Of a DNA stretch of 64,000 nt, positions 3,597 through 25,810 are shown piece by piece (within the stretch, counting starts at the first letter, position 1; each line of letters begins with the position of its first letter). The notes under the pieces are model-generated. The model was not told where the DNA came from and did no database searches. It was given only the letters and a program-made list of their open reading frames with translations. The stretch is from positions 1 to 64,000 of the forward strand of contig JARDZP010000014.1 in the NCBI GenBank assembly GCA_029240795.1, in the 5' to 3' direction. The DNA is from Haloplasmataceae bacterium. Lineage in GTDB: Bacteria; Bacillota_I; Bacilli_A; Haloplasmatales; Haloplasmataceae. The translations under genes were made by a program, and so were the position numbers.

Positions 3597-5198
3597 ATGA
3601 GTGTGATTTATTATTTAACCCTAATTTTAACTTCTTTATTATATATTTATATAAGTATAAGAAGATATGTTCATAGTTGTTTTATTATGCAACTTGAACA
3701 TTATAGTATAAATAAATTTTTTAAATGGTTGATGAACAATAAGGTAAATAAGAAACTTATATTACCAGTTATTTCTTCATTAATAAATATAATAATTGTA
3801 TTTGCTTTTGATGTAAATTTATTTACCATATTTATTCAATTAATATTAGGATTACTAACTATACCTTATATAAAATATAAACATGAAAAAAAGAAATTTG
3901 TTTTAACAAACAGAGTTAAGAGAATTTTTGTAACAAGTATCGTTTTAATAGGGATCATTCTATCTTTAATCTACTTTATTATGAATAAGAGTGCCAATAT
4001 GGGTATAATTTTATTTACAAGTTTATTAATTATTAATTTTTTAGTTTTTGATTTAATGTTACTTGCTTTTTTAACATTAATTCCGATTGAAAAATATATT
4101 CAAAATAAATTTATAAAACTTGCCAAAGCAAAACTCTTAACGAATAGTAAACTTAAAGTAGTTGCTATAACAGGTAGTTATGGTAAAACTTCAACTAAAT
4201 TTGTCTTAAACGATATACTAAGTAAAGCATTTAACGTGTGCGTAACTCCTAACTCTTTTAATACACCAATGGGAGTAACAACAACTGTTAATAATAAATT
4301 AAGAAATATTGATGAAATATTTATTTGTGAGATGGGTGCCTGTAAAAAAGGAGAAATAAAAGAATTATGTGATATTGTAGATCCTAAAATAGGTATTTTA
4401 ACAAGTATTGGTCCACAACATTTAGAATCTTTTGGTAGTATAAAAAATATCATTAATACTAAATTTGAACTAATTGAGTCATTGCCAAGTGAAGGTGCTG
4501 CTATACTTAATTATGACAATTACTACATTAGAAATTATCATATAAAAAATAATGTTCAAGTCTTAACATATGGTATTGAACAATCAAATGTTATGTATCA
4601 AGCGATAAATATTCATTATGGAACATTTGGTTCTACGTTTGAGGTAGTTTTCCCCAACAAGGATCGTTATTTATTTAAAACAAAATTATTAGGAAAACAT
4701 AGTATCTATAATATTTTAGCCGGAATAGTTACTGCTGATTACTTTAAGTTAAATATGAAAATAGTTGCAACTACCATTGAACAATTAACAACTGTAGAAC
4801 ATCGATTGCAATTAATTAATTTTAAAAACTATAATATTATAGATGATTCTTTCAACGCAAACATTGAAGGAGTAAGCAATGCCATTGATATTTTGAATCA
4901 TTTTGAAACAAAAAAGATTATCATAACACCAGGTATGATTGAACTTGGTCAATCACAATATGAACATAATTATTTTTTTGGGGAAAAGATTGCCGGGGTA
5001 TGCGATTATATCGTGTTGGTTGGTAAAAATCAAACTAAACCTATTTTTAATGCTTTAAGTGATTCATTATATCCAGAAAATCAAATATTTGTTACCAATG
5101 ATTTCAAAGAAGGTATGCAACATATTCTTAATACATTTAAAGAAAACTTTACAGTATTAATTGAAAATGATCTACCTGATAATTACAATGAAAATTAA
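3597..5198 (+). CDS. murF: MurF-like Mur ligase with an N-terminal membrane region
   Basis: Probable UDP-MurNAc-tripeptide:D-Ala-D-Ala ligase, adding the terminal dipeptide to the wall precursor. The ATP-binding loop GSYGKTST (193-200) is followed by a TPNSFNTPMG substrate loop, an EMGA metal-ligand segment, and DDSFNAN and ENDLPDNY near the C-terminus, all MurF-like. At 533 aa it is longer than ordinary MurF (about 450). The first 190 residues are not a soluble MurF N-domain but carry about five hydrophobic segments. Membrane-fused MurF relatives of this kind occur in other Firmicutes. The gene immediately downstream makes the D-Ala-D-Ala substrate, which supports the assignment. A divergent Mur ligase acting on another substrate is the main alternative. 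Confidence 0.85.
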   Translation: MSVIYYLTLILTSLLYIYISIRRYVHSCFIMQLEHYSINKFFKWLMNNKVNKKLILPVISSLINIIIVFAFDVNLFTIFIQLILGLLTIPYIKYKHEKKKFVLTNRVKRIFVTSIVLIGIILSLIYFIMNKSANMGIILFTSLLIINFLVFDLMLLAFLTLIPIEKYIQNKFIKLAKAKLLTNSKLKVVAITGSYGKTSTKFVLNDILSKAFNVCVTPNSFNTPMGVTTTVNNKLRNIDEIFICEMGACKKGEIKELCDIVDPKIGILTSIGPQHLESFGSIKNIINTKFELIESLPSEGAAILNYDNYYIRNYHIKNNVQVLTYGIEQSNVMYQAINIHYGTFGSTFEVVFPNKDRYLFKTKLLGKHSIYNILAGIVTADYFKLNMKIVATTIEQLTTVEHRLQLINFKNYNIIDDSFNANIEGVSNAIDILNHFETKKIIITPGMIELGQSQYEHNYFFGEKIAGVCDYIVLVGKNQTKPIFNALSDSLYPENQIFVTNDFKEGMQHILNTFKENFTVLIENDLPDNYNEN

Positions 5199-20951: not shown

Positions 20952-21344
20952 TTGATTAAGATAAATGTTGTTACTCCTTTAGGAAAGTTATTTGAAGAAG
21001 AAGTTAATTTTATAACAATCAGAAATGCTGATGGAGAACAAGCTATTTTAAAAAATCATATTCCTGTAGTAATAGCTATAAATCCAGGTTATATAAAGTT
21101 AAATAGAAAAGATGAAATTTTATTTGTTACAATTGTTGGTGGATTTTTAGAATTTAGTAATAACATAGTTAACGTCATAGCTCAAGAGGCTGAAATCGGA
21201 AGAGATCATGATAATGCATTAAAACATTTAGAAGATTTACGTAAGAATAGAGTAAATGAAAATAAACGTAAAAATATCGATTTTACAAAAGCAGAACGTG
21301 AATTAAGAGAACAAATTAGAAATATTAGTGCAAATCAACTATAA
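20952..21344 (+). CDS. atpC: ATP synthase F1 subunit epsilon
   Basis: Rotor subunit that also restrains ATP hydrolysis. 130 aa: N-terminal beta sandwich beginning IKINVVTPLG, then the two-helix C-terminal domain (KAERELREQIRN), so the inhibitory helices are retained. The frame is open from GTG 20937, which overlaps the atpD stop, but that stretch is the GTGGAGGAG ribosome binding site. TTG 20952 is the better start. Confidence 0.94.
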   Translation: MIKINVVTPLGKLFEEEVNFITIRNADGEQAILKNHIPVVIAINPGYIKLNRKDEILFVTIVGGFLEFSNNIVNVIAQEAEIGRDHDNALKHLEDLRKNRVNENKRKNIDFTKAERELREQIRNISANQL

Positions 21345-21350
21345 TTAATG

Positions 21351-21379
21351 AGCAGCTCGTAAATGAGTTGCTTTTTTTA
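21351..21379 (+). terminator. Terminator of the atp operon
   Basis: Stem AGCAGCTC/GAGTTGCT (one G-T pair), 6-nt loop, seven T. It separates the ATP synthase operon from the regulator/peptide locus. Confidence 0.9.
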
Positions 21380-21396
21380 TTTAATTTTGCAATTAC

Positions 21397-21425
21397 TTAC
21401 ATTTTATGACAATTTTTGATATAAT
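21397..21425 (+). promoter_or_regulatory. Promoter of the first regulator
   Basis: TTACAT, 17-nt spacer, TATAAT (21420-21425), 21 nt before the ATG. The TTTGATATAATTAA core is repeated before the second regulator (23073-23086), as expected if the two genes arose by duplication. Confidence 0.65.
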
Positions 21426-21446: not shown

Positions 21447-22709
21447 ATGAAAATTTTCGATTATGCTATACCAGATGAAGAGAAAAAGCAATTAGGTTAT
21501 ATCATTAGAGAAATAAGAAAAATCAAATTTCAAGAATATAAGAATCGTACTCTAATTGAAAATAATCCTTATACAAAAGAAAACTTTTGTGAAAATAACA
21601 CAATATGCCACTACCATACCTTAACTAAATTAGAAAGTGGAGATACAGCAAAAGAAGATTTAGTCTATCATACTCTATTAGATAAATTAGAGTTATATTT
21701 CCAAGTTGGAATTAATGAACACATGAGGAATATGGAATTTATTAATGATATCGCAAAAGATATGTTAATTTCTATAGAATATATTGATGATGAATTATTG
21801 ATAAGTATAAAACAAAGATTAGAAAAAGTAAATTTTGAAAAAGACTGTATTGCATTAATGTATTTGGATGTAATAAACTTTGCTTATAATACTCAATTAG
21901 TTAAACAGATAGATGAATCAATAATTGATAAAATGGAAAGATTTTCCGATTTTTATAATGACGTATATAAAGGAATAGTTAATTTGTTATTGGGAAACTA
22001 CTTTCTAAATAATAGTCAGTATGATAAATCAAAATTATATTTATATAATTCCAAGAAATTTTTTGAAGCAAATAATTACAGTAAAGGTATAGTCAATGCA
22101 TACCTTATTGGTTTGCATAAGATGACTTTTAACTATTTAGATATTGTATCTATTTGTAATGAAATGGAAATTTATTATAACGAAACAAATAATTATAAAA
22201 GATTAATTCATGTTTATAATTATTTATCTGATTATTATTTTTTAATAAATGCTATCGACTATGCTGAAGAGTATTTTAAAAAGACAATTGATATTATTAA
22301 TAATCATAAAGGTTTAGAGCGATACAAATTTATTTTAAATTTTAACTGGGGCATAAGATGCTTCGCTAATTATCGAATTGAAGAAGCCTTGCAGTATCTA
22401 TTAGATGCTTATCAAAATTGTAATAATCCAAATCTTTACCTTCAAAATATAAACTTACTCTTGATCATGTTAACTAAGTTACAAAAACCGTATGCATTAA
22501 TCATAAAATATTTAGAGGTTGGTAAAAAGTATTATGAAAACATTAATGAACCAGATCAAATGTTATTCAAATATTTTACTTTTAAATACGAAAAAAATGG
22601 TTATCATCGTCGTTATGCGTTAGAAAAACTCATTCCTAAATTAAGTAATAATCGTAATAATAACGAAATTTTATTATTTATTTATGAAGATTTATATAAA
22701 AAGTTGTAA
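21447..22709 (+). CDS. RRNPP-like regulator 1 (HTH plus TPR-like repeats)
   Basis: 420 aa. Residues 12-80 form a divergent XRE-type DNA-binding domain: LGYIIREIRKIK begins it, and TLTKLESGD lies where XRE proteins have the recognition helix followed by E-x-G. An insert with NPYTKENFC and a nearby CH lies between. The remaining 340 residues are helical and rich in Tyr/Asn, with TPR-like spacing (LLGNYFLNNSQYDKSKLYL, YLSDYYFLINAIDYAEEYF). HTH plus C-terminal TPR is the architecture of PlcR, Rgg, Rap and AimR peptide receptors. A secreted PapR-like peptide gene starts 106 nt downstream, the usual receptor-peptide order. It is paralogous to the next two regulators. The family assignment is by architecture and context, not by clear sequence homology. 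Confidence 0.75.
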   Translation: MKIFDYAIPDEEKKQLGYIIREIRKIKFQEYKNRTLIENNPYTKENFCENNTICHYHTLTKLESGDTAKEDLVYHTLLDKLELYFQVGINEHMRNMEFINDIAKDMLISIEYIDDELLISIKQRLEKVNFEKDCIALMYLDVINFAYNTQLVKQIDESIIDKMERFSDFYNDVYKGIVNLLLGNYFLNNSQYDKSKLYLYNSKKFFEANNYSKGIVNAYLIGLHKMTFNYLDIVSICNEMEIYYNETNNYKRLIHVYNYLSDYYFLINAIDYAEEYFKKTIDIINNHKGLERYKFILNFNWGIRCFANYRIEEALQYLLDAYQNCNNPNLYLQNINLLLIMLTKLQKPYALIIKYLEVGKKYYENINEPDQMLFKYFTFKYEKNGYHRRYALEKLIPKLSNNRNNNEILLFIYEDLYKKL

Positions 22710-22736
22710 AAGCACGTTAATTTGGTACAGTTTTAT

Positions 22737-22783
22737 ATACTTTTTATATTTTTTTCGCCACCTTTCTATTTTTATAGTACAAT
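22737..22783 (+). promoter_or_regulatory. Peptide-gene promoter with upstream box A
   Basis: ATACTTTTTATAT (22737-22749) lies 28 nt upstream of a TACAAT -10 (22778-22783, overlapping TATAAT 22783-22788). No -35 is recognisable, so activation by a bound regulator is likely. The same 13-mer at the same distance, and a similar CTATTTTT stretch before the -10, recur at 25659-25704. Confidence 0.6.
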
Positions 22784-22814
22784 ATAATTAGTAACAAATT
22801 GGGAGGAAAAATAA

Positions 22815-22985
22815 ATGAAAAAAATTAAAACATTACTAGTGTCATTTTTAGTAGTATTAACAATCGCATTAGCGATTAATTTTAGTCAACAAAACCAAAT
22901 AAAAGAGTATGCATCTATTAATGAGGTATCAGATATAGAAACTAGACCATTACCTTTCTCAATAAAAAAACCAACTCAATTATAA
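22815..22985 (+). CDS. Small secreted propeptide, PapR-like
   Basis: 56 codons after a strong TTGGGAGGAAAAAT site. The N-terminus is MKKIK, then a hydrophobic run (residues 6-23) with ALA at 18-20 fitting signal peptidase I. A polar 36-residue tail ends IETRPLPFSIKKPTQL. Size, Sec signal and the C-terminal PLPF segment recall PapR, whose mature pheromone contains LPFEY. It lies directly downstream of a receptor-like gene and has its own promoter and terminator. Predicted role: exported, trimmed outside and re-imported by an oligopeptide permease to bind one or more of the three regulators. The exact mature form cannot be deduced. A small secreted protein of another kind is the alternative. 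Confidence 0.75.
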   Translation: MKKIKTLLVSFLVVLTIALAINFSQQNQIKEYASINEVSDIETRPLPFSIKKPTQL

Positions 22986-23014
22986 AAATAAATGATTACC
23001 TTATTAATTACTTT

Positions 23015-23052
23015 AAAAAGTACTATTCAATATATGAATAGTACTTTTTATT
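23015..23052 (+). terminator. Terminator of the propeptide gene
   Basis: Perfect 15-bp stem AAAAAGTACTATTCA/TGAATAGTACTTTTT (23015-23029 and 23035-23049), 5-nt loop. With the promoter at 22778 it defines a transcript of about 260 nt that holds only the peptide gene. Confidence 0.92.
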
Positions 23053-23055
23053 TCA

Positions 23056-23083
23056 TTGAATTAATTCCTTAATTTGATATAAT
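23056..23083 (+). promoter_or_regulatory. Promoter of regulators 2 and 3
   Basis: TTGAAT (23056-23061), 16-nt spacer, TATAAT (23078-23083). Regulator 3 starts 15 nt after regulator 2 stops, so this promoter probably serves both. Confidence 0.7.
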
Positions 23084-23113
23084 TAAATAGAATGATGTGA
23101 TCAAGGACGGATA

Positions 23114-24364
23114 ATGATGCAAAAAGAAACAGATAACCTACTTTCAGACGATGTAAAATTAAAGCTTGGATGTTTAATTAGAGAAATTCGAAAATATAAG
23201 TATCAAGAATATGTTAAAGATGATAATAATTTTAACCCCTATACTAAAGAAAATATTTGTAGTGATATATGTCATATAAACACATTATCTAAATTGGAGT
23301 GTGAAGTAGTTAAAAAGGATTCTATTTATCATTCTATCTTAGCTAAACTTGATTTAAAATACAATGTTAATGATATCGAGTTTATTGAAAATTCCAAATT
23401 ATTAGAAAACGTAATTTCAGGAAATTTATTGCACGCTATAGAATTTAAAGACAATGTAGCCTTAGAAGCCATTAAGAACAAATTAGATACCTTTAATTTT
23501 GAGAATGATTGTTTTAATAAAATGAATCTATGGTTTATTAATTTTTTTATAGTATTTAAACTATATGATGTGATCGAAGAAAAAAATATAAATTTACTAA
23601 CAGGGTTATTAGATTATTTTATTGATATTTATAAATGTTTAGCTAAGAATTTATTAGGATTATATTTTTTTACTAAAAAGAATTATGATACAGCAAAAAC
23701 ATTTCTTCTTGAAGCTAGAGAATCATATATAAAACTTAATATAAACCCTGGTATTATAAATGACGACCTTATTAAAGCCTATGAATATAATAATAATTAT
23801 CTCGAAGCCATTCAATTATGTTTAGAGATGGAAAAGTATTATTTTATTAATAATAATTATAACTGTTTGATCAATGTATATATTTTTTTAGATAATTATT
23901 ACTTACTTATAAATGCGAATGAACAAGCTCTATGTTATTTTAATAAAACAACTGATTTAGTTTTAAAAAATCCTGATTTAAATCATAATGTTTATTTGAT
24001 GAACTATAATTGGGCATTAAAACATTATAAAAATAATGAAATAGATCAAGCTATTGACTATGGTTATTCTGCTTACAAAAATTGTAATGTAACAGTTAAA
24101 AAATTAGAGACCATTAATTTATTATTAATTTTATATACAAAAGTAAAAAATAATAAAATTCTAAAGTTAATTGAAGAGGGAAAGAAATATCTTGATTATG
24201 CAAATGATTATGACCAATTATTATTTAGATATTTTGTATATAAGTTTGAAAATAAAGATTATTATCGTAAATTCGCTACTGAAAAGGTTATGCCATTTTT
24301 AAAAAAAATTAGAAATAAAAAAGAATTTTTATTATTTATTTACGAAGATTTATATGAAATATAA
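23114..24364 (+). CDS. RRNPP-like regulator 2
   Basis: 416 aa and paralogous along its whole length to the regulators at 21447 and 24380. The N-terminal domain has LGCLIREIRKYK, NPYTKENIC, CHINTLSKLE and a helical tail. The conserved C-terminal end reads FLLFIYEDLYEI, matching the other two. The segment after SKLE is CEVVKKDS instead of the x-G-x form, so the E-x-G turn is changed here. ATG 23114 and 23117 are both possible after GGACGG. The role is as for regulator 1. Which copy binds the peptide is unknown. Confidence 0.72.
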   Translation: MMQKETDNLLSDDVKLKLGCLIREIRKYKYQEYVKDDNNFNPYTKENICSDICHINTLSKLECEVVKKDSIYHSILAKLDLKYNVNDIEFIENSKLLENVISGNLLHAIEFKDNVALEAIKNKLDTFNFENDCFNKMNLWFINFFIVFKLYDVIEEKNINLLTGLLDYFIDIYKCLAKNLLGLYFFTKKNYDTAKTFLLEARESYIKLNINPGIINDDLIKAYEYNNNYLEAIQLCLEMEKYYFINNNYNCLINVYIFLDNYYLLINANEQALCYFNKTTDLVLKNPDLNHNVYLMNYNWALKHYKNNEIDQAIDYGYSAYKNCNVTVKKLETINLLLILYTKVKNNKILKLIEEGKKYLDYANDYDQLLFRYFVYKFENKDYYRKFATEKVMPFLKKIRNKKEFLLFIYEDLYEI

Positions 24365-24379
24365 TTCTCGAGGTGAAAT

Positions 24380-25612
24380 ATGAGAAATATAAAAGAATAT
24401 AGTTTAACAAATGAAATAAAAAGAAAACTGGGATTTATTATTAAAACCACAAGAACAAATAGGCAAAAAGAATACCAAGGGTTAATAGAAAAAAATCCAT
24501 ACACTAAGGAAAACTTCTGTAAAGAGACATGTCATTATCATACACTTACTAAATTGGAAAATGGAATTATAAAAGAAGATATGATCTATCATATCTTCTT
24601 GGATAAACTGGGGTTTTATTTTCAAATTGAAGTAGATGAGCATCTAAAAAATTTGGAGATTATTTATCAATTAGTTAAAAAATTATTAATCGCTAACGAA
24701 TATTTAGATGATGATTTACTTAACAATATAATTATTGAATTTGAAAAAAATGACTTTTCAAAGGACTGTATCGCTGATTTACACTTAAAATTATTGAAAC
24801 ATTACAGTAATTTGCAAAAGTTTAATCAAAGTGAAACTGAATTTAAGTTAATTGAATCCTATTTATTATTTTATGATGATATTTATTTAGGTATGGCATA
24901 TCATTATTTAGGGTTATCCTATTTAAAAAGAAGAAATATAAATAAGTCAGAAGAATTACTTTTCAATGCAAGAGAGATATACGAAAAAAATAATGTGAGT
25001 AGAGGTATTGTAAATCCCAATATCATAAATATATATGAGTATAAAAAAGAATATCTTAATGCGGTAAATTTATGTTTTGAAATGGAAAATTATTTTCTTG
25101 AAAGTAAAAATTTTAAACGTTTGATTCATACCTATAATTTTTTGAGTTACTTTTATTTAATGATAAATGATTTTAATACAGGTGAAAGATATTATAATAA
25201 ATGTATGATGATTATCGATAATAATGAAAGTCTATTAAGGTATAAAGGTATAATTCAATATAATTTTGGTGTTTATATTTTTTCAAACTTTGGAATTAAG
25301 GAAAGTGAAAAATTTCTAATATCTTCATATAAAACGTCTCAATTAAAGGAATATAAATTTTTAGGGAAAATTGTATCATTAATTATTATGACATCATTAA
25401 AATACTGTGAAAAAGAAATTATCGATTTGCTAAATGATGGTGTAGAAGAGGATAAAAATGAAACTCATAATATAATTTATAGATATTTTAAATACAAATA
25501 TGAGAAGCCTGGATATCATCGTAAATATGCATTAGAAAAGCTTATTCCTTATTTAAAAGAACGAAAATTAACTGAAGAGTTACTGTTTATTTATGAAGAT
25601 TTATATGGATAA
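24380..25612 (+). CDS. RRNPP-like regulator 3
   Basis: 410 aa, closer by eye to regulator 1 (CHYHTLTKLENG, KEDMIYHIFLDKL, GYHRKYALEKLIPYL) than to regulator 2. It has an N-terminal divergent HTH with the shared Cys/Cys-His element, then helical repeats such as YHYLGLSYLKRRNINKSEELL. It starts 15 nt after regulator 2 with GAGGTG, so it is cotranscribed. No peptide gene with a Sec signal follows it, but a short promoter-terminator unit does (25699-25802). Confidence 0.72.
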   Translation: MRNIKEYSLTNEIKRKLGFIIKTTRTNRQKEYQGLIEKNPYTKENFCKETCHYHTLTKLENGIIKEDMIYHIFLDKLGFYFQIEVDEHLKNLEIIYQLVKKLLIANEYLDDDLLNNIIIEFEKNDFSKDCIADLHLKLLKHYSNLQKFNQSETEFKLIESYLLFYDDIYLGMAYHYLGLSYLKRRNINKSEELLFNAREIYEKNNVSRGIVNPNIINIYEYKKEYLNAVNLCFEMENYFLESKNFKRLIHTYNFLSYFYLMINDFNTGERYYNKCMMIIDNNESLLRYKGIIQYNFGVYIFSNFGIKESEKFLISSYKTSQLKEYKFLGKIVSLIIMTSLKYCEKEIIDLLNDGVEEDKNETHNIIYRYFKYKYEKPGYHRKYALEKLIPYLKERKLTEELLFIYEDLYG

Positions 25613-25658
25613 AAAATGTAAGTTGTTCATAATTTACTCCTTCTCGAGAGTAATTTAA

Positions 25659-25704
25659 ATACTTTTTATATATTTTTAAAGTAGACTATTTTTTATTGTA
25701 TAAT
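25659..25704 (+). promoter_or_regulatory. Promoter with upstream box B, twin of the peptide promoter
   Basis: ATACTTTTTATAT (25659-25671) is identical to box A and lies 27 nt before TATAAT (25699-25704). The stretch before the -10, CTATTTTTTATTG, also matches that of the peptide promoter. No -35 is present. It is probably under the same regulator. Confidence 0.6.
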
Positions 25705-25710
25705 AATAGT

Positions 25711-25810
25711 GGGTTAATTAGTGAGGATTGTTCATAAGTATTGTTATTATATGAAAAGGGTAATAATTAAAAAAAAGAATGGTATTTTATGCCATTCTTT
25801 TTATGTTTAA
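25711..25810 (+). ncRNA. Short transcript after regulator 3, small RNA or tiny peptide
   Basis: The box B promoter and the terminator at 25772-25802 bound a transcript of about 90-95 nt. One reading frame, GTG 25721 to TAA 25808, would give 29 residues ending ILCHSFYV. It has a weak GTGGG site, lacks a signal peptide and runs through the terminator stem, so it is doubtful. The options are a regulated small RNA, a decayed second peptide gene, or a leaderless short peptide. Confidence 0.4.
25772..25802 (+). terminator. Terminator of the short transcript
   Basis: 13-bp stem AAAAAGAATGGTA/TGCCATTCTTTTT with one G-T pair and a 5-nt loop. Confidence 0.9.

Follow-up and report, generated by a model that had tools for sequence, protein, structure and literature searches.

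Most reports of RRNPP-type receptors come from Bacillales and Lactobacillales, and some come from paenibacilli and clostridia (PMC9765709, PMC10075063). In one such system, NprR-NprX, the peptide NprX converts NprR dimers into DNA-binding tetramers, and the crystals of the apo receptor lack the helix-turn-helix (HTH) domain (PMC4970707). Five characters have been used to recognize such systems: a propeptide of 10 to 100 aa, a Sec signal, a receptor of 250 to 500 aa, TPRs in that receptor, and adjacency of the two genes (PMC10075063). Our literature search turned up no report of an RRNPP system in Haloplasma, and that genus is not named in the main text of the RRNPP_detector paper (PMC10075063). 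Here, we describe a locus in a 64,000-nucleotide stretch of DNA from a Haloplasmataceae bacterium (contig JARDZP010000014.1; hereafter, the window) that very probably represents a new RRNPP-type peptide quorum-sensing subfamily, in which peptide-bound R1 would activate promoters bearing a large dyad operator. A little-studied branch akin to the contractile Haloplasma appears to sense its own numbers by means of a short secreted peptide and an intracellular receptor.

The receptor/peptide block spans 21447 to 25612 on the + strand of the window and is flanked by atpC (which ends at 21344) and a DUF1146 gene (25861). The gene order, all on one strand, is atpC, a terminator, R1, a 56-codon gene, a terminator, R2, R3, a short terminated stretch, and the DUF1146 gene, downstream of which come genes for a SpoIIQ-like peptidase and then a SpoIIID-like regulator (both named by eye). 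The parts are as follows.

21350 to 21380, + strand: terminator-like hairpin 3' of atpC (stem 21350 to 21373, then a T run)
21396 to 21425, + strand: R1 promoter-like site (CTTACA-N18-TATAAT, with TG before the -10)
21447 to 22709, + strand: R1, 420-aa HTH-TPR receptor/regulator, a proposed transcription activator switched on by peptide (open reading frame, fold model, and fold search)
22695 to 22748, + strand: 54-bp dyad operator of the peptide gene (left arm 22695 to 22706, inner element 22715 to 22728, right arm 22737 to 22748; model E 8.6e-10, the site being among those that trained the model)
22778 to 22783, + strand: peptide promoter -10, TACAAT (41 nt from the right arm start; no good -35)
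22815 to 22985, + strand: 56-aa signal propeptide with an RPLPFSI motif (GGGAGG ribosome site upstream)
23014 to 23050, + strand: terminator-like hairpin 3' of the propeptide gene
23056 to 23083, + strand: promoter-like site of the R2-R3 operon
23114 to 24364, + strand: R2, paralogous HTH-TPR protein of 416 aa (open reading frame)
24380 to 25612, + strand: R3, paralogous HTH-TPR protein of 410 aa (open reading frame)
25617 to 25670, + strand: second dyad operator (left arm degenerate, right arm 25659 to 25670 intact; E 1.1e-8, included in the model)
25699 to 25802, + strand: -10 (25699 to 25704) and short terminated transcript (terminator 25772 to 25802), a tentative assignment

The hairpin after atpC is terminator-like and would separate R1 from the ATP synthase operon, while R2 and R3, with a promoter-like site of their own, look like a separate operon. 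The left arm of the peptide-gene dyad overlaps the 3' end of R1, and the dyad is absent from R1's own promoter-like site (21396 to 21425). The stretch from 25699 to 25802, under the second operator, is tentatively read as a possible quorum-controlled small RNA; it has counterparts in two related genomes (G005 and G007), and the transcript aligns poorly across genomes. The initial annotation had placed three receptors around one propeptide; the open reading frames, their sizes, and the layout are as it described, but the unit that is conserved is R1 plus the peptide gene only. Four of the five RRNPP characters listed above are found here, namely propeptide size, receptor size (410 to 420 aa), TPRs, and adjacency, the last for R1 and the propeptide in five genomes, with a sixth ending at a contig edge.

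What kind of proteins are R1, R2, and R3? R2 and R3 are 42 to 44% identical to R1, and scans of all three against Pfam, NCBIfam, and PHROG returned no family, which bears out the earlier statement that they have no obvious match to a named subfamily. Sequence searches of the PDB yielded only weak, generic TPR matches, and NprR was absent from the profile search of PDB sequences up to E 10. The TPR signal in sequence is itself weak: Pfam TPR_2 reaches E 8.6e-6 in the R1 of G007, just below its curated cut-off, and a TPR cut-off is passed only by the orphan paralogue in L027. No RRNPP family matches by HMM, so the evidence for kinship is the predicted fold. The AlphaFold2 model of R1 (14-sequence alignment, pLDDT 91.8) has an N-terminal XRE-type HTH followed by an all-helical TPR superhelix of about 17 helices. 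The PDB fold search ranks NprR first (5dbk, E 1.1e-6) and Rap and RapI next, and PlcR (3u3w) is matched at E 1e-3; TM-scores against NprR 5dbk are 0.53 to 0.69, to be read with the caveat that TPR superhelices can resemble each other by convergence. Because the apo NprR crystals lack the HTH, the N-terminal 112 aa of R1 were folded separately; XRE HTH proteins, ComR and PlcR among them, make up the overwhelming majority of the matches, which are weak (best E, 0.16) and support, without proving, a predicted HTH at the R1 N terminus. The expectation that these proteins would combine an HTH with a TPR-like superhelix, which a different predicted fold would have undermined, was thus upheld, and the nearest solved structures include NprR, Rap, and PlcR.

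The 56-aa product begins MKKIKTLLVSFLVVLTIALAI and includes RPLPFSIKKPTQL. Its start scores 22.9 bits against NCBIfam Phr_nterm, just short of the cut-off of 25, and Pfam assigns no family to the window's copy. Across six genomes the propeptides are 44 to 69 aa long, and all copies start with basic residues followed by a hydrophobic stretch, as a Sec signal would. In all five genomes in which R1 is assembled, the gene that follows it is small and signal-like, has a ribosome site, and encodes P[LIM]P[FY]; in G004, the peptide gene lies near a contig edge and R1 is cut off. Chance was assessed in five genomes by asking for a signal-like small open reading frame with a ribosome site and P[LIVM]P[FY] no more than 330 nt from the R1 stop; among dinucleotide shuffles of the five regions, 0 of 2000 per region gave a signal-like frame with a ribosome site, or one with the motif. 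The proposal that a peptide gene accompanies the receptor could have failed on homologues lacking such a neighbor; instead, the homologous loci retain an adjacent small signal-peptide gene. The mature peptide is uncertain because PxP[FY] is followed by 2 to 27 residues, that is, it lies at a variable distance from the C terminus. In both genomes of one genus, a gene of 123 to 132 aa follows the peptide gene (L024:8895-9266 and L025:8668-9066); Pfam found no family for the copy in G006.

The peptide promoter carries a 54-bp dyad, TATAAAAAGTnT-N8-GTCTCATATGAGAC-N8-ATACTTTTTATA, 40 to 41 nt upstream of the -10, and alignment of the gaps between R1 and the peptide gene places ATACTTTTTATA at that distance from a -10. 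The pattern of right arm plus -10 gave 5 sites in the window's genome (G000), where its reversed control gave 0, and 8 in G005, where the control gave 3. At the sites so found, a mirror-image left arm and an inner palindrome emerged, neither of which was part of the pattern; at ten sites lying outside the locus, positions one to six of the left arm gave 54 of 60 matches at the exact mirror offset and at most 34 elsewhere. An operator model was then built from 17 sites, which match it by construction, and it returned 11 further sites. Nine of these have TATAA at the mirror position, against a background of 0.45% (the model favors that arm), and 9 of the 11 have a -10 at 40 to 41 nt, a feature outside the model for which random expectation is 3%. 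In the receptor genomes, 28 sites fall at E <= 1e-3 (G000, 7; G003, 2; G004, 1; G005, 10; G006, 3; G007, 5), and two relatives without receptors have none at that threshold. Among 120 genomes of the class, 3 of the 114 outside these six have a single weak partial match, which we take as chance. The peptide promoter bears the operator in 5/5 genomes with the region assembled; the window's own inner palindrome is imperfect. Two further dyads deserve mention: one in L094 (around 4458 to 4516) scores well on both strands and may serve divergent genes, and one in G007 (L104:4557-4607), possibly decayed, retains its left arm and inner palindrome intact but has a broken right arm and lacks a -10.

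In our sample of eight genomes of the order, where the relatives include Haloplasma and Inordinaticella, the receptor family is present in six. The position between atpC and the DUF1146 gene is seen in five (the window, G003, G005, G006, and G007), the G004 contig being too short. No member of the family from outside the order turned up in a phylum sample at E 1e-5, and a class sample gave weak, distant matches. In the tree, the orphan paralogues split off (100/100) and the relatives' R1s group together (99/99); R2 and R3 of the relatives belong to old clades that diverge faster, and the window's R2 and R3 fall nearest R1, in an unsettled part. The orphan paralogue (405 to 407 aa) occurs in five genomes (L027:6940-8160, L028:8166-9410, L029:8332-9549, L030:7799-9016, and, on the minus strand, L091), adjoins MntP-like, NfeD-like, and SPFH genes with no neighboring peptide gene seen, and may be an eavesdropper; the copy in the window's genome is found downstream of the operator-bearing GGDEF-EAL gene. 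In another family of the class, G021 has a 46-aa signal-like peptide gene directly 5' of a gene for a 426-aa HTH-TPR-like protein (L032:1158-2640), another candidate RRNPP pair.

Which genes would such an operator control? Targets were predicted from site position, with gene starts and operon extents judged by eye. A SUKH-domain gene and secA lie downstream of sites in five genomes (G003, G004, G005, G006, and G007), and no SUKH gene like those of the relatives was found in the window's genome, which is 86% complete. Predicted targets there comprise four consecutive MreB-like genes, of which Pfam confirmed the first; a set assigned by eye to exopolysaccharide, in which a chain-length-like protein and a sugar-nucleotide enzyme come after a ParA/CpsD-like ATPase; a GGDEF-EAL protein; and a signal-peptide protein of 839 aa. 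The targets in G005 and G006 include several proteins with signal peptides, one of which carries an Ig-like surface domain. Sites in G000 (contig C82) and G007 (contig C47) have no clear target. Taken together, the targets suggest that cell density would control secretion, surface polysaccharide, cyclic-di-GMP, and perhaps the MreB cytoskeleton. The operator and its predicted regulon, neither of which figured in the initial annotation, are the strongest evidence for a transcriptional output. The length and specificity of the operator allow the regulon to be predicted ahead of experiment; its DNA switches can be read genome-wide, so the R1-peptide system is directly testable.

These observations are consistent with a model, the simplest one in light of the established biology of NprR, PlcR, and Rap (PMC4970707, PMC6568020, PMC10075063), in which the 56-aa propeptide would leave the cell by the Sec route and, once outside, be cut down to a short peptide around P-L-P-F. 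At high density, the peptide would be re-imported, most simply via an oligopeptide permease (Opp; the window's genome has an Opp-type operon at G000:C122), and would bind the TPR superhelix of R1. Peptide-bound R1 would then bind the 54-bp three-element dyad through its XRE-type HTH domains and would probably activate, rather than repress, promoters with a -10 but a poor -35. Because the peptide gene is itself a predicted target, positive feedback would follow. R2 and R3, as diverged paralogues, may modulate or eavesdrop. We speculate that the four-part symmetry of the operator would suit a tetramer, as in NprR. A fuller version, which we consider rather unlikely, has an R1-peptide tetramer on the 54-bp operator, with one of its dimers on the inner palindrome and the other on the two outer arms, which are separated by 42 bp (four helical turns), and would couple density to a duplicated MreB cytoskeleton of the sort linked to Haloplasma contraction; H. 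contractile has seven MreBs and contracts (PMC8432965).

Could R1 instead be a repressor that peptide releases, as for some Rgg proteins and PrgX, with the dyad as the site of repression? The sign of regulation is not readable from sequence and the dyad is large and palindromic, but the operator sits at a fixed 40 to 41 nt upstream of the -10, with a poor -35 and no overlap of the -10, which is the layout of an activator, and we judge repression improbable. Equally improbable, in our estimation, is that the dyad belongs to another regulator while R1 and its peptide act otherwise, for example, by Rap-like protein binding. Rap is among the best fold matches and the link from R1 to the dyad is indirect; against this, the R1 N terminus is HTH-like, and strong operator matches are confined to receptor genomes and sit on every assembled peptide promoter. 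That R1 is the operator's regulator is also indicated by G006, which has only R1 at the locus yet has the operator, and by G001, which has the orphan paralogue and lacks the operator; the assignment of the dyad to R1 is thus inferred from co-occurrence in a few genomes.

Do all three receptors share the peptide and operator? This three-receptor network would be a variant of, and compatible with, activation by peptide-bound R1, and the HTH and TPR regions kept in R1, R2, and R3 speak for it, as does the position of the window's R2 and R3 nearest R1. The single receptor of G006, which keeps operator and peptide without R2 and R3, and the age and faster divergence of the relatives' R2 and R3 speak against it, and we regard it as possible though doubtful. 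A reading in which R1-R3 are XRE-TPR regulators that respond to a different signal, and the 56-aa product is a small secreted or membrane peptide unrelated to them, seems to us very improbable: the propeptides are short and diverged and the window's copy has no Pfam family, but at least five genomes keep the pair with PxP[FY], the peptide promoter carries the regulon's own operator, and the start of the peptide resembles Phr leaders. Phage arbitrium is unsupported: a search of viral contigs returned no relatives, and no viral structure matched the fold at E below 0.001.

Among the closest known systems is NprR-NprX of the Bacillus cereus group, which shares the HTH with a long Rap-like TPR array, is the best PDB fold match, has its peptide gene adjoining the receptor, and activates a large regulon, as the R1 system would. 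The R1 model has that architecture (the HTH match being weak in E-value), and R1 lacks HMM-detectable sequence similarity to NprR; NprX-8, SSKPDIVG, is without PxPF, unlike the window's propeptide, and the predicted operator of R1 is a 54-bp three-element dyad. PlcR-PapR, also of the Bacillus cereus group, has a receptor followed by a peptide gene, a regulon rich in secreted proteins, and autoinduction, as the R1 system would, and the LPFEF active core of PapR resembles PLPF, a PxPF likeness that may be convergent (PMC2464732, PMC6568020). In contrast, PlcR has five TPRs in about 280 aa, where R1 has 420 aa and about 17 helices after the HTH, and the 16-bp palindrome of the PlcR box (TATGnAnnnnTnCATA) stands at a variable promoter distance, where the dyad is 54 bp long at a fixed spacing; R1 accordingly falls outside the PlcR subfamily. 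The initial annotation was right that R1-R3 are longer than PlcR or Rgg; NprR, however, has the same HTH and long TPR layout. Rap-Phr contributes Rap folds among the best matches and a propeptide leader close to the Phr_nterm model, but Rap has no DNA-binding HTH, whereas the R1 N terminus is HTH-like. Because the system appears to work like RRNPP and is neither NprR nor PlcR by sequence, it would constitute a new subfamily with its own operator, as had been suggested from the sequence and as the fold, the conserved adjacent peptide gene, and the lack of a named-family match support. It shows the same kind of signature as the 21 candidate RRNPP subfamilies of RRNPP_detector (PMC10075063) and would extend the RRNPP range to the Haloplasma lineage, via a receptor family that current libraries do not recognize.
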